Below, one piece after another: positions 8,311 through 12,549 of a DNA stretch of 64,000 bases. A program made the translations under genes and the position numbers. Source of the DNA: Nakamurella lactea DSM 19367 (lineage in GTDB: Bacteria; Actinomycetota; Actinomycetes; Mycobacteriales; Nakamurellaceae); contig NZ_AUFT01000020.1 of assembly GCF_000426645.1 (NCBI RefSeq), positions 44,585 through 108,584 of the forward strand, given 5' to 3'. The notes under the pieces were generated by a model. That model was not told where the DNA came from and ran no database searches. It was given only the letters and a program-made list of their open reading frames with translations. The stretch's first letter is position 1. Each line of letters opens with the position of its first letter.

Positions 8311-8333
8311 ATTACATAGGTAACCTATGTAAT
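8311..8333. promoter_or_regulatory. Perfect 11-bp inverted repeat, probable MarR operator
   Basis: ATTACATAGGT-A-ACCTATGTAAT is an exact palindrome with one central base. It overlaps the first bases of the downstream MarR gene. TAACCT (8321-8326) inside it fits a TANNNT -10 box placed 5 nt before the ATG. Binding of the MarR dimer would therefore cover the core promoter of its own MarR-MFS operon. The A+T-rich palindrome stands out sharply from the surrounding sequence. Confidence 0.8.
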
Positions 8334-8835
8334 GTCGAGGAACGTGAGCGACAGCGCGTCCGACGAGCTCGGATCCGAACTGCTGACGGTGCTGGCGGGT
8401 CTGAACCGCTGGGCAACCGCCAGGGCGGACCTGCCGGTGCCGTATGCGCAGGCCAGGCTGCTCAGCCTGATCGACCTGCACGGGCCGGCCAGGATCTCAG
8501 AGCTGGCCGCCGCCGACCACAGCAGCCAGCCGACGATCACTCAGCAGCTGCGACGGCTGGACGACGCCGGACTGATCTGTCGGACCCCAGATCCGGATGA
8601 CGCCAGGGCAGTGCAGATCAGCCTCAGCGGATCCGGCGTCATCGCCCTGCGGAGCATCAGGCAGGCCAGGACGGACGTTGTCGCCCCGGAGCTGGCTGCT
8701 ATGTCCGCCCTCGAGCGCCGGCGGATCGCCGCGGCCGTCCCCGCCCTGCGTCGGCTGCTGAACAGCCTCGGCGCTCCCCAGTCCGAAACACCCGCCACAG
8801 AAGTACGCAGCGATCAGGAAAGTAGCACCGAATGA
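8332..8835 (+). CDS. MarR-family transcriptional regulator
   Basis: 167-aa winged-helix protein. The recognition helix region reads ISELAAADHSSQPTITQQLRRLDDAGL, followed by the wing R..DPDDARAVQISLS, both typical of MarR. The ATG at 8332 has no ribosome-binding site and begins 5 nt after a TAACCT box, so it may be leaderless; the GTG at 8344 has a GAGGA too close to be convincing. The stop overlaps the ATG of the MFS transporter by 4 nt. A perfect palindrome covers the promoter, so this protein most likely represses itself and the transporter until a ligand, probably an exported compound, binds. The ligand is unknown. Confidence 0.9.
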   Translation: MSRNVSDSASDELGSELLTVLAGLNRWATARADLPVPYAQARLLSLIDLHGPARISELAAADHSSQPTITQQLRRLDDAGLICRTPDPDDARAVQISLSGSGVIALRSIRQARTDVVAPELAAMSALERRRIAAAVPALRRLLNSLGAPQSETPATEVRSDQESSTE

Positions 8836-10106
8836 CACCCACAGCGTCGTCAGCCTCGCTGTCGAAGACCGATCCAACGGATGCGCCGCCGAGCATGTGG
8901 CGTCAGCCGAAAGCGGTGTGGGCGGTGGCTTTCGCCTGCGTGATCGCCTTCATGGGGATCGGCCTGGTGGACCCGATCCTCAAGCCGATCGCCGGGCAAC
9001 TCAACGCCAGCGCCTCGCAGGTGTCGCTGCTGTTCACCAGCTACATGGTGGTGATGGCCGTGGCCATGCTGATCACCGGCTGGGTGTCCAGCCGGCTGGG
9101 CGCCAAGAACACCCTGCTGCTCGGCCTCGCGGTGATCATCGTCGGCTCGGTGCTGGCCGGGGCCAGTGGCTCGATCACCGGCATCATCGGCTGGCGCGGG
9201 CTCTGGGGTCTGGGCAATGCGCTGTTCGTGGCCACCGCGCTGTCCACCATCGTGGCGTCCGCCAAGGGCTCTGTCGGTCAGGCGATCATCCTGTACGAGG
9301 CCGCGTTGGGTGTCGGCATCGCGGTCGGACCGCTGATCGGCGGCCTGCTCGGCAACATCTCCTGGCGCGGCCCGTTCTTCGGCGTCGGGGTGCTGATGGC
9401 GATCGCGCTGGTCGTCACCACCTTCCTGCTCCCGGCGACGCACATCAAGCCGAAACCGATCCGGCTGGGTGATCCGTTCCGGGCGCTCAAGCATCAGGGA
9501 CTGCTCACCGTCGCGATCACCGCGCTGCTGTACAACTTCGGTTTCTTCACCCTGCTCGCCTTCACCCCGTTCGTGCTGAACATGAGCGCGATCAGGATCG
9601 GCCTGATCTTCTGTGGCTGGGGCATCGCGCTGGCCATCACCTCGGTCTTCGTCGCGCCGAGACTGCAGGCACGATTCGGCAGCCTGCCCTCGGTGGTCGG
9701 CGCATTGACCGGGCTCAGCGTGGTGCTGGCGGCGATGGCGATCTTCACCGACAACAACCCGGCACTGATCGTCTGTGTGGTCGTCGGCGGTCTGTTCCTG
9801 GGGATCAACAACACCCTCGTCACCGAGATCGTGATGAAGGTGGCGCCGGTGGAACGCCCGGTCGCGTCGGCGGCCTACAGCTTCGTCCGGTTCGGCGGCG
9901 GGGCGATCGCCCCGTGGCTGGCCGGAAAGCTCGGCGAAGAGGTGAGCCCGCATCTGCCGTTCTGGGTCGGGGCCGGCGCGGTGTTGTTGGGCGCTCTGCT
10001 GTTGGTGGTGCGGCGGCGGCTGTTCGCGAACGTCGACGTCGAGCACATGGTCCCCCCGGCCGATTCTCAGGAAGAGGCCGAGGACCTCACCCTCGCCGAC
10101 TCCTGA
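8832..10106 (+). CDS. MFS drug/metabolite exporter, 12 membrane segments
   Basis: 424-aa inner-membrane antiporter. Twelve hydrophobic segments can be counted, with a central hydrophilic loop around HIKPKPIRLGDPFRALKHQ. The loop 2-3 motif is GWVSSRLGAKNTLLLG, a variant of the MFS G-x-x-x-D-R-x-G-R-R signature with Ser in place of Asp; GVGIAVGPLIGGLLG in segment 5 is the motif C of proton-coupled exporters (DHA1). Coupled to the upstream MarR gene by an ATGA overlap, so expression should be ligand-induced. The cytoplasmic C-tail is acidic. The substrate cannot be read from sequence; a toxic compound or an end product is likely. A strong hairpin ends the operon. Confidence 0.88.
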   Translation: MTPTASSASLSKTDPTDAPPSMWRQPKAVWAVAFACVIAFMGIGLVDPILKPIAGQLNASASQVSLLFTSYMVVMAVAMLITGWVSSRLGAKNTLLLGLAVIIVGSVLAGASGSITGIIGWRGLWGLGNALFVATALSTIVASAKGSVGQAIILYEAALGVGIAVGPLIGGLLGNISWRGPFFGVGVLMAIALVVTTFLLPATHIKPKPIRLGDPFRALKHQGLLTVAITALLYNFGFFTLLAFTPFVLNMSAIRIGLIFCGWGIALAITSVFVAPRLQARFGSLPSVVGALTGLSVVLAAMAIFTDNNPALIVCVVVGGLFLGINNTLVTEIVMKVAPVERPVASAAYSFVRFGGGAIAPWLAGKLGEEVSPHLPFWVGAGAVLLGALLLVVRRRLFANVDVEHMVPPADSQEEAEDLTLADS

Positions 10107-10135
10107 CCGGATCAGGGCGCGGTTGTCCCCCTGGA

Positions 10136-10181
10136 GGCGTAGCGGGGTTGTCCCGCTCGGGCGGGACAACCCCGCTACGCC
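10136..10181. terminator. Bidirectional terminator, 21-bp perfect stem
   Basis: Arms 10136-10156 and 10161-10181 are exact inverted copies with a TCGG loop. No U-tract follows on the + strand, as usual for actinomycete I-type terminators. It sits between the converging MFS (+) and soxR (-) genes and overlaps the last bases of soxR, so it can serve both. Confidence 0.88.
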
Positions 10182-10648
10182 TTGGTGGGGGCGCGGCGCA
10201 ACAGCGCAGGCAGCAGGGTCGCTCCCGGCGCCCGGTCGCTGCCGGCCCCCACATCGTTCGGGTTGGAGAAGGCGCAGCGTTGCAACGACAGGCAACCGCA
10301 GCCGATGCACGAGGTCAACCCGTCACGGAGGCGTTCGAGTGCGGCGATCTGCTGGTCGAGTCGACCCCGCCAGTGCTGCGAGATCCGCTCCCAGTCCGCC
10401 TTGTTCGGGGTGCGGTTGTCGGGCAGCTTGGCCAGTTCGACCCTGATCTCGTCCAGGCTCAGGCCGACGTTGCTGGCCGCCCGGATGAAGGCCAGCCGAC
10501 GTAACACGTTGCGTTCGAACCGGCGCTGGCCACCGGAGTTCCGGACGGCGTGGATCAACCCCTGGCTCTCGTAGTACCGCAGGGCTGACGCGGCGAACCC
10601 GCTGCGGGCCGCCACCTCGCCGACCCCGAGCATGTCCATGGTGTGCAC
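10175..10648 (-). CDS. soxR: SoxR, redox-sensing MerR-family regulator
   Basis: 157-aa activator with an N-terminal MerR helix-turn-helix (LGVGEVAARSGFAASALRYYE), a dimerisation coiled coil and the [2Fe-2S] cluster motif CIGCGCLSLQRC, whose spacing C-x2-C-x-C-x5-C is diagnostic for SoxR. The GTG at 10648 is chosen because GAGGAG lies 6 nt upstream; ATG at 10639 or 10687 are alternatives. Oxidation of the cluster by redox-active small molecules would switch on the divergent SDR-QueA-like operon through the dyad at 10687-10706. In actinomycetes SoxR responds to phenazine- or quinone-like compounds and controls reductases, which fits the adjacent SDR. Confidence 0.93.
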   Translation of the reverse strand: MHTMDMLGVGEVAARSGFAASALRYYESQGLIHAVRNSGGQRRFERNVLRRLAFIRAASNVGLSLDEIRVELAKLPDNRTPNKADWERISQHWRGRLDQQIAALERLRDGLTSCIGCGCLSLQRCAFSNPNDVGAGSDRAPGATLLPALLRRAPTKA

Positions 10649-10680
10649 GAGAAGCTCCTCGAAAGAATGTTGTCCGACCC

Positions 10681-10711
10681 TTGACATGAAGTTGACTTCA
10701 ACTTCAACACT
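10681..10711 (+). promoter_or_regulatory. SoxR-type promoter: TTGACA, 19-bp spacer with dyad, AACACT
   Basis: A -35 box TTGACA (10681-10686) and a -10 box AACACT (10706-10711) are 19 bp apart, the over-long spacing that MerR-family activators correct by twisting DNA. The spacer holds a 9-bp dyad, TGAAGTTGA-CT-TCAACTTCA (10687-10706). The SDR start codon is 7 nt past the -10 box, so the transcript should be leaderless. The dyad is also just upstream of soxR, allowing autoregulation. The half-sites are not identical to those of the enterobacterial SoxR box. Confidence 0.88.
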
Positions 10712-10718
10712 GGCGGAC

Positions 10719-11462
10719 ATGAGTGGAAACGTCAAGCAGGGCAGGAACGGAAACCAACGGGCCGAGGAACCGGTGGCACTGATCACCGGCGGGTCGGCCG
10801 GCCTCGGTCGGGCGTTGGCCACCGGATTGGCGGCCGCGGGCTGGACCGTGGTGACCGACGCCCGCGGCCCGGGCCGGCTGGCCGAGCTGATCGCCACGCA
10901 TCCCGACCGGCTGAACGGCATCGTCGGCGACGTCGGCGACCCCGACCACCGACAGGCCTTGGCCGCCGAGGTCCGCCGGTTGGGCCGGCTAGACCTGCTG
11001 GTCCACAACGCCAGTTCGCTCGGCCCGGTGCCGTTGCGGCCGCTGCGGGAGCTCGGGGCCGACCAGCTGCGGGCGGTCTGGGCCACCAACGTCGACGCCC
11101 CGCTCGCGCTGACCCAGTTGCTGCTCGAACCGCTGCTGGCCTCAGACGGGGTGCTGCTGTCCATCTCGTCTGACGCCGCTCTCGAGCACTACCAGGGCTG
11201 GGGAGGGTACGGCGCGAGCAAGGCGGCCCTGGATCACCTCACCCTGACTTTCGGCACCGAATCGCCGCTCACCGCCTACGCGGTGGATCCGGGTGACATG
11301 CGTACCCAGATGCACCAGGACGCCTTCCTCGGCGAGGACATCTCGGACCGGCCGCTGCCGGAGACGGTGGTACCGCAGCTGCTGGCACTGCTGGCCGCGC
11401 GCCCACCCTCGGGTCGATACCGAGCGGCGGACATCGCGGCGGCACCGGGACGGGTGAGCTGA
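10719..11462 (+). CDS. SDR-family NAD(P)-dependent oxidoreductase, SoxR target
   Basis: 247-aa short-chain dehydrogenase/reductase. Cofactor motif TGGSAGLG at about residues 26-33, the structural HNAS motif near residue 100, and the catalytic Ser plus YxxxK as YGASK. Start is the ATG 10719, which lies 7 nt after a -10 box and has no ribosome-binding site. The gene faces soxR across a MerR-type promoter, so it is likely induced by redox-cycling compounds and may reduce a quinone-like or carbonyl toxicant. Its stop is 1 nt from the ATG of the QueA-like gene, so the two are co-translated. The substrate is unknown. Confidence 0.87.
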   Translation: MSGNVKQGRNGNQRAEEPVALITGGSAGLGRALATGLAAAGWTVVTDARGPGRLAELIATHPDRLNGIVGDVGDPDHRQALAAEVRRLGRLDLLVHNASSLGPVPLRPLRELGADQLRAVWATNVDAPLALTQLLLEPLLASDGVLLSISSDAALEHYQGWGGYGASKAALDHLTLTFGTESPLTAYAVDPGDMRTQMHQDAFLGEDISDRPLPETVVPQLLALLAARPPSGRYRAADIAAAPGRVS

Positions 11463-11463
11463 A

Positions 11464-12549
11464 ATGGCCGCGCTGCTGCTGCCGACGACCCGGTTCGCCG
11501 AGCCCGACGAGCTCACCGCACCCGGCCCGCCGGAGAGCCGCGGGCTGGCCAGGGACGCGGTGCGTATGTTGGTCGCGCGGGGCGGGGATGACGGCCCGGC
11601 TGCAGAACCGGAGATCCGCCACCTGCGGTTCCGGGAGCTACCGGACCAACTCCGGTCCGGAGATCTGTTGGTGGTCAACGACTCGGCGACGATCGCTGCC
11701 GAGGCCGACGGTCTGCTCGCCCGCCACGGACCGATCGTCGTGCACGCCGCCACCGCGTTGGATGACGGCAGTTGGGTGCTCGAGCTGCGCACCGCACCGG
11801 ATGCCGCCGAACCGATCCTGGACGCCCATCGCGGTGAACGGCTGACCGTCGCCGACCTGCAGGCAACCCTGCGGGAGCCCTACCCGCGGCCGGACTCGTC
11901 ACCCACCGGTTCCGGGAACCGGTTGTGGCGCACCGACATCGACGGCGATCTGGGCGCGGCACTGCTCGCCGAGGGCAGACCCATCAGCTACGGCTACCTG
12001 GATCGGCGATATCCGCTGGACGACTACCAGACACTGTTCGGCGACCGTCCCGGGAGCGTCGAGATGCCGTCCGCCGGGCGTCCGTTCACCCGGCGACTGG
12101 TCAACGCGGTGGCAGCGCACGGCATCGGTATCGCCACCATCACCCTGCATACCGGGGTGTCGTCCCAGGACGTCGGCGAAGGACCGCAGGCCGAGCGGTT
12201 CGAGGTTTCGGCCGCCACCGCGCGCCAGGTCGCGGCAACCCGGCGGGACGGTGGACGAGTGGTCGCCGTCGGCACCACCGTCACCCGCGCGCTGGAGTCC
12301 GCGGTCGCCGCGGACGGCCGGATCGGTCCGGCAGGGGGCTGGACCGATCGGGTGATCACCCCGGACGACCCGCCGCGGGTGGTGGACGGACTGATCACCG
12401 GTTGGCACAACCCGCAGGCTTCGCATCTGCTGTTGGTGGAAGCGGTCGCGGGGGCCGCGCTGACCCAGGCCGCCTACGACGCCGCGGTGGCAGGCGGTTA
12501 CCTCTGGCACGAATTCGGTGACTCCGCGCTGCTGTTGCCGACGCGGTGA
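11464..12549 (+). CDS. Divergent QueA-like S-adenosylmethionine ribosyltransferase-isomerase homologue
   Basis: 361-aa protein related to QueA, which transfers the ribosyl part of S-adenosylmethionine to 7-aminomethyl-7-deazaguanine in tRNA to make epoxyqueuosine. Shared blocks are LRSGDLLVVNDSATI, RPISYGYLDRRYPLDDYQTLF and GSV-x-x-P-x-AG. Two conserved QueA blocks differ: the usual AGLHF reads AGRPF (conserved His lost) and the LHVGxGTF block reads LHTGVSSQD. The gene is translationally coupled to the SoxR-controlled SDR. No other queuosine gene (tgt, queF, queG) is in this window. The family is clear, but activity as a true QueA is doubtful; it may be a neofunctionalised paralog acting on another substrate under redox control. 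Confidence 0.78.
   Translation: MAALLLPTTRFAEPDELTAPGPPESRGLARDAVRMLVARGGDDGPAAEPEIRHLRFRELPDQLRSGDLLVVNDSATIAAEADGLLARHGPIVVHAATALDDGSWVLELRTAPDAAEPILDAHRGERLTVADLQATLREPYPRPDSSPTGSGNRLWRTDIDGDLGAALLAEGRPISYGYLDRRYPLDDYQTLFGDRPGSVEMPSAGRPFTRRLVNAVAAHGIGIATITLHTGVSSQDVGEGPQAERFEVSAATARQVAATRRDGGRVVAVGTTVTRALESAVAADGRIGPAGGWTDRVITPDDPPRVVDGLITGWHNPQASHLLLVEAVAGAALTQAAYDAAVAGGYLWHEFGDSALLLPTR

Follow-up and report, generated by a model that had tools for sequence, protein, structure and literature searches.

The locus examined here, part of a 64-kb stretch of the Nakamurella lactea DSM 19367 genome (hereafter the window, meaning the whole stretch of DNA that was analysed), raises the question of what a QueA-like protein does when its gene follows an SDR gene and a divergent soxR. 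Sources that name such proteins call them queuosine enzymes, and the initial annotation had proposed a ribosyl-transfer enzyme, acting on tRNA or on a small molecule, that is switched on by redox stress. The features concerned are as follows.

10175..10639, minus strand: soxR, MerR-family redox sensor gene (TIGR01950; C-x2-C-x-C-x5-C cluster motif)
10681..10711, plus strand: predicted promoter of the SDR-QueAL operon (TTGACA, 19-bp spacer, AACACT)
10687..10700, plus strand: predicted SoxR box TGAAGTTGACTTCA (exact match to the pattern TNAAGTTNACTTNA)
10719..11462, plus strand: SDR reductase gene (N124, S151, Y164, K168)
11464..12549, plus strand: QueA-like gene (QueAL; 361 aa; PF02547)

Layout of the soxR, SDR and QueAL locus

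A letter-by-letter check bore out the positions originally given for soxR, the promoter, and the SDR and QueA-like genes. The promoter is composed of TTGACA (10681-10686), a 19-bp spacer (10687-10705) and AACACT (10706-10711), and the SoxR box lies within a 9-bp dyad, TGAAGTTGA-CT-TCAACTTCA (10687-10706); the dyad is real, but it runs one base beyond the spacer in which it had been placed. For soxR, the ATG at 10639 is the likelier start (154 codons), and the cysteine motif is present in its product as CIGCGCLSLQRC. The SDR ATG at 10719 is located 7 nt past the -10 element, and hence the SDR-QueAL mRNA may be leaderless. The SDR stop codon ends at 11462 and the QueAL ATG begins at 11464, which confirms the gap of 1 nt between the two genes, and the AGRPF and LHTGVSSQD stretches of the QueA-like protein were both found, at residues 204 and 228.

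The sensor was assigned to SoxR by its family score and [2Fe-2S] cysteine motif, with 189.8 bits against NCBIfam TIGR01950 (cut-off, 116.9) and an E value of 2.7e-36 against E. coli SoxR (2zhg), and the promoter was of the SoxR type, having a SoxR box within a 19-bp-spacer promoter. The SDR showed the Rossmann fold, the TGxxxGxG motif and the catalytic N-S-Y-K of a classical SDR; its solved structural relatives are named ketoreductases, sepiapterin reductases and similar.

On the other side of soxR, and tail-to-tail with it, lie genes for a MarR regulator and an MFS pump (8332-10106), which overlap by 4 nt; no match to the pump was found among the 80 relative loci from the genome-contig scan described below. 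A perfect 21-bp inverted repeat (10136-10181) separates the convergent MFS and soxR genes and also spans the last soxR bases. The RNA fold of this region (10130-10190) gave -55 kcal/mol (z, -9.4), and the repeat, of which no further copy within 3 mismatches was found in the window, looks like a two-way terminator.

The SDR-QueAL pair and its regulators across genomes

A genome-contig scan returned at least 571 QueAL relatives, of which the best 80 were taken; together with 66 loci from a class sample and 35 from a phylum sample, these gave a set of 181 loci that includes five repeats (L103, L113, L131, L204 and L212). An SDR gene was found upstream of QueAL on the same strand in 179 of the 181 loci, with a 4-nt overlap between the SDR stop and the QueAL start in 111 of these 179 (script-chosen starts). 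The two loci without it were L061, whose contig begins inside the SDR gene, and L220, where none was seen. A divergent soxR was present in 74 loci (70 without the repeats), a divergent histidine kinase gene in 38, neither in 69 (including 8 with less than 1.2 kb upstream or no SDR, in which a regulator could be missed), and both in none. The linkage to soxR, which had been taken as the key feature of the locus, is real, but at 74 loci against 179 the SDR partner is the deeper constant.

The histidine kinases of the 38 kinase-linked loci resemble that of L133 (GAF, HisKA_3), which is followed by a NarL-type response regulator. In these Streptomyces-type loci, the sensor kinase stands at soxR's place and the SoxR box is absent from all 38; the regulator is swapped on the same SDR-QueAL pair. 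Since soxR occurs at only 74 of the 181 loci and the Streptomyces-type loci carry the kinase, redox control is not universal.

A SoxR box with at most one mismatch was observed upstream of the SDR gene in 66 of the 74 soxR-linked loci (62 without the repeats), including 51 exact matches. The agreement is partly by construction, because the upstream regions searched for the pattern TNAAGTTNACTTNA were also its source. As controls for this group, none of 1480 shuffles and none of 1303 stretches from other parts of these loci had the box. The kinase-linked loci (0 of 38) and a scan of the window's own genome are the more independent tests; the remaining loci had the box in 10 of 67 cases, and in the controls for the unlinked group it turned up in one of 2100 shuffles and none of 1888 stretches. 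TTGAC stood at most 9 nt ahead of the box in 53 of the 66 box-bearing relatives. The core of TGAAGTTGACTTCA agrees with the E. coli soxS box. Within the window, a 16-base box probe allowing three mismatches gave four matches, of which two were the promoter site itself, matched on both strands; shuffles gave 0.09 on average.

A longer box pattern, run against the window's own genome with up to two mismatches allowed, gave five sites, among which the window site alone was perfect, and the reversed pattern gave no site in the same scan. The other four (L224, L225, L226 and L227) directly precede gene starts, the genes being an ABC exporter (ABC_membrane, ABC_tran), a zinc-type dehydrogenase (ADH_N, ADH_zinc_N) that may be read as quinone oxidoreductase-like, a PNPOx-type protein and an MFS transporter. 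These genes look like efflux and detoxification functions, and these four further sites are predicted to mark a small SoxR regulon. The conserved box between -35 and -10, together with four further boxes ahead of genes typical of SoxR control, strongly suggested that SoxR controls the SDR-QueAL promoter, as the initial annotation had supposed; redox control of the pair is likely.

QueAL was found in 2 of 17 genomes of the window's genus, which makes it an accessory trait there. In 12 of the 80 scan loci, mostly from Nocardia (L029, L036, L039, L055, L057, L058, L062, L066, L068, L070, L078 and L080), a series of mnmA, metE-like and ligA genes precedes the SDR-QueAL pair. The same three genes also flank the module in the window, though its QueAL is not the nearest kin of theirs.

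QueAL, canonical QueA and the occurrence of TGT

The window QueAL has the PF02547 domain and fold of the QueA family, and it scored below the cut-offs of the NCBIfam QueA models (172.1 vs 324, 127.1 vs 267.45 and 82.9 vs 588). It keeps the shared core of the family, including G270-T271-T272, R275, E278, H315 and G352-D353, which we infer to handle SAM; its use of SAM is presumed from homology. In place of the A, A, L, H, N, L and S of canonical QueA, for which 30 sequences of the phylum served as the reference, it has E200, M201, R206, P207, G313, H321 and E350. P207 was found in 164 of 178 QueAL rows, and the other six were invariant in all 178; a further residue, H349, falls where canonical QueA is variable. 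In a tree of 110 proteins, whose bootstrap was not fully settled, QueAL formed a clade of its own, separate from canonical QueA (100/100). Every one of the 45 soxR-linked rows fell within a single clade of 68 rows (100/99), in which case the linkage could have arisen once and then been lost in parts. The suggested link between soxR and a QueA-like gene recurs throughout one large QueAL clade. The window protein grouped with Flexivirga (90/91) among mostly Nocardioides-like kin.

Among 296 genomes of the class, 68 had a PF02547 match (one of them, in G071, a 29-column contig-end fragment below the cut-off) and 88 had TGT, the enzyme that inserts queuosine, and only the window's genome had both, against 20.2 genomes expected; 67 of the 68 genomes with a QueA-family match were without TGT. 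The PF02547 scores in this sample did not exceed 256.5 bits among the matches listed. Among the matches listed for 198 genomes of the phylum, the PF02547 score separated canonical QueA (297-471 bits; 106 genomes) from QueAL (277 bits or less; 44 genomes), the split being drawn at 297 and 277 bits. All 106 genomes with canonical QueA among the matches listed had TGT, whereas 32 of the 33 with QueAL only lacked it, the exception again being the window's genome. Relatedness of the genomes inflates such statistics, and the exclusion of QueAL and TGT is partly phylogeny, as TGT in the class is largely confined to a few other families; the weight is on the all-or-none pattern rather than on a p-value.

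At least 11 phylum genomes, all of family f52, had both kinds of QueA, a count that is a minimum since second matches are possible in G389, G400, G429, G437 and others. The presence of both kinds in one genome argues, within this one lineage, for separate jobs of the two proteins. In these eleven genomes the canonical QueA occurred with TGT and the QueAL with an SDR gene in every case. These genomes (G333, G373, G383 and eight more; loci L188-L198) are a natural setting in which to compare the two enzymes directly.

The proposal that the QueA-like enzyme works on tRNA did not fare well: QueAL is almost never found with TGT unless a canonical QueA is present, and a different invariant set has taken over at positions that canonical QueA keeps fixed. 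The evidence thus disfavours the tRNA reading. As the sampled QueAL genomes without a canonical QueA nearly all lack TGT, the queuosine label is very probably wrong for this large family of at least 571 relatives.

Proposed function and comparison with known systems

From these sequence comparisons, we lean modestly towards an SDR-QueAL operon whose products would transfer the ribose portion of SAM to a small molecule and not to preQ1-tRNA, and that would be turned on when SoxR is oxidised by redox-active compounds. Its most likely role would be to tailor a redox-active small molecule, or to detoxify it, by means of the SAM ribose. By analogy with other MerR-family activators, oxidised SoxR bound at about 10687-10706 would activate the 19-bp-spacer promoter; the SDR would act, with a nicotinamide cofactor, at a carbonyl of either substrate or product; and QueAL would split SAM into adenine, methionine and a C5 sugar unit and pass this unit to a new acceptor, which would most likely be a redox-active aromatic compound, such as a phenazine or a quinone, or else a metabolite produced in response to such a compound. 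More tentatively, as a real possibility rather than an expectation, Actinomycetota may hold a second, tRNA-independent branch of QueA chemistry, in which an SDR and an altered QueA, linked to SoxR or a sensor kinase, would attach the ribose of SAM, or an epoxycyclopentane derived from it, to a redox-active small molecule as a cap. No example of SAM as a sugar donor outside queuosine was found in the literature searched. Should the acceptor prove to be a small molecule, sugar donation would become a second role for SAM, and actinobacteria would have a new way of dealing with redox-active antibiotics. Because the pair is compact and self-contained, this can be tested directly.

A related possibility, which we regard as unlikely, is that the two enzymes serve biosynthesis instead of disarming an incoming compound: their product would be a small signal, cofactor or antibiotic bearing a cyclopentane or ribose, and the regulators would only time its production. 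The constancy of the enzyme pair under a varying regulator (soxR, the kinase system or neither) would fit such a role, whereas no larger cluster was evident among 146 loci, where the most-shared other families (counted apart from QueAL, the SDR, genes at soxR's place and the kinase pair, and identified in part) occurred in at most 41 loci and mostly in varying or lineage-specific places. The resemblance of the other SoxR-box genes of this genome to efflux and detoxification functions also speaks against it.

It is rather improbable that the target of QueAL under redox stress is another nucleic acid (a different base in tRNA, or one in DNA) whose modification the SDR would complete. In its favour, QueAL has the fold and shared core of a tRNA enzyme, effects of metals and oxidative stress are seen in E. 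coli deficient in queuosine according to the cited part of PMC9508795, and the tRNA gene mnmA lies near the pair in the 12 scan loci and in the window; the mnmA neighbours are, however, restricted to one lineage type. The replacement of the canonical fixed residues throughout QueAL argues against this reading, as do the constant SDR partner, whose solved relatives are of the ketoreductase and sepiapterin-reductase type, and the position of the other SoxR sites of this genome before pumps and redox-type enzymes.

The window's genome itself has TGT and no PF02547 gene besides QueAL, and QueAL might for this reason be thought to replace the missing QueA there, so that queuosine would be made with the resident TGT. 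We consider this very improbable. The check for tgt and queG that had been suggested gave a split answer, with TGT present and QueG not found, and there was no sign of a complete queuosine pathway served by this gene as its normal queA: QueG (TIGR00276) and QueH (PF02677) had no match in this genome, which is 98% complete, and QueC had a marginal one (22.9 bits, covering 56 of the 210 columns, within a frame of 840 residues). In the class sample, a further 87 genomes with TGT had no PF02547 match at all. The loop of the window-genome TGT reads GGALEKE, as against GG[LF]SVGE in 19 of 30 canonical-QueA loci, the other 11 giving no match to the pattern used. This loop is the one that holds Val233 (Z. 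mobilis numbering). Val233 bears on queuine binding, as stated in the cited part of PMC3660597.

This TGT gene, on another contig (L002, 1432-4164), adjoins a Vut_1 (YhhQ) gene and a tRNA-synt_1c gene that may be read as GluQRS-like. In this it resembles queuine salvage as set out in the cited part of PMC5372724, where bacteria with TGT only are predicted to be queuine salvagers; unlike a member of such a cluster, QueAL lies on a different contig, outside the TGT/YhhQ group. The TGT locus probably serves queuine salvage and may still make glutamyl-queuosine, and with salvage no QueA would be needed in this genome.

It is also highly unlikely that QueAL cleaves SAM, or is non-catalytic, without a transfer acceptor (for example as a sensor or a SAM-lowering partner of the SDR): several canonical fixed positions are changed and its activity is putative, whereas the invariance of other residues, including the charged E200, R206 and E350, in all 178 rows suggests that a specific catalytic site is kept.

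The known QueA (PF02547; 1WDI, 1VKY and 1YY3) is the tRNA preQ1(34) S-adenosylmethionine ribosyltransferase-isomerase, for which no substrate-bound structure is recorded in the cited part of a 2023 review (PMC10491745); QueAL differs from it in its own clade, its own residues, its SDR pairing and its occurrence in genomes without TGT. The nearest known reductases compared with the SDR were the classical YciK, yeast YIR035C and KRED1-Pglu, from which the QueAL-linked SDR differs by a conserved stretch of its own, DPGDMRT-MHQ--FPGEDISDRP, and by a gene that mostly overlaps QueAL.

The closest regulatory parallel is the SoxR regulon of Streptomyces coelicolor, in which, according to the cited part of PMC4146615, an ABC transporter, oxidoreductases, a monooxygenase, an epimerase/dehydratase and a quinone oxidoreductase are under SoxR control, with ecaA-ecaD, SCO2478 and SCO0320ext among the members. 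Both systems have the box at the promoter and transporters and redox enzymes as targets, and the box-bearing ABC exporter and quinone-oxidoreductase-like dehydrogenase found here belong to classes similar to those of that regulon (PMC4146615). The members given in that part of the paper include no QueA-type gene and so not the SDR-QueAL pair, and unlike in the S. coelicolor regulon as described there (PMC4146615), soxR in the present locus is divergent from, and directly adjoins, its likely target.
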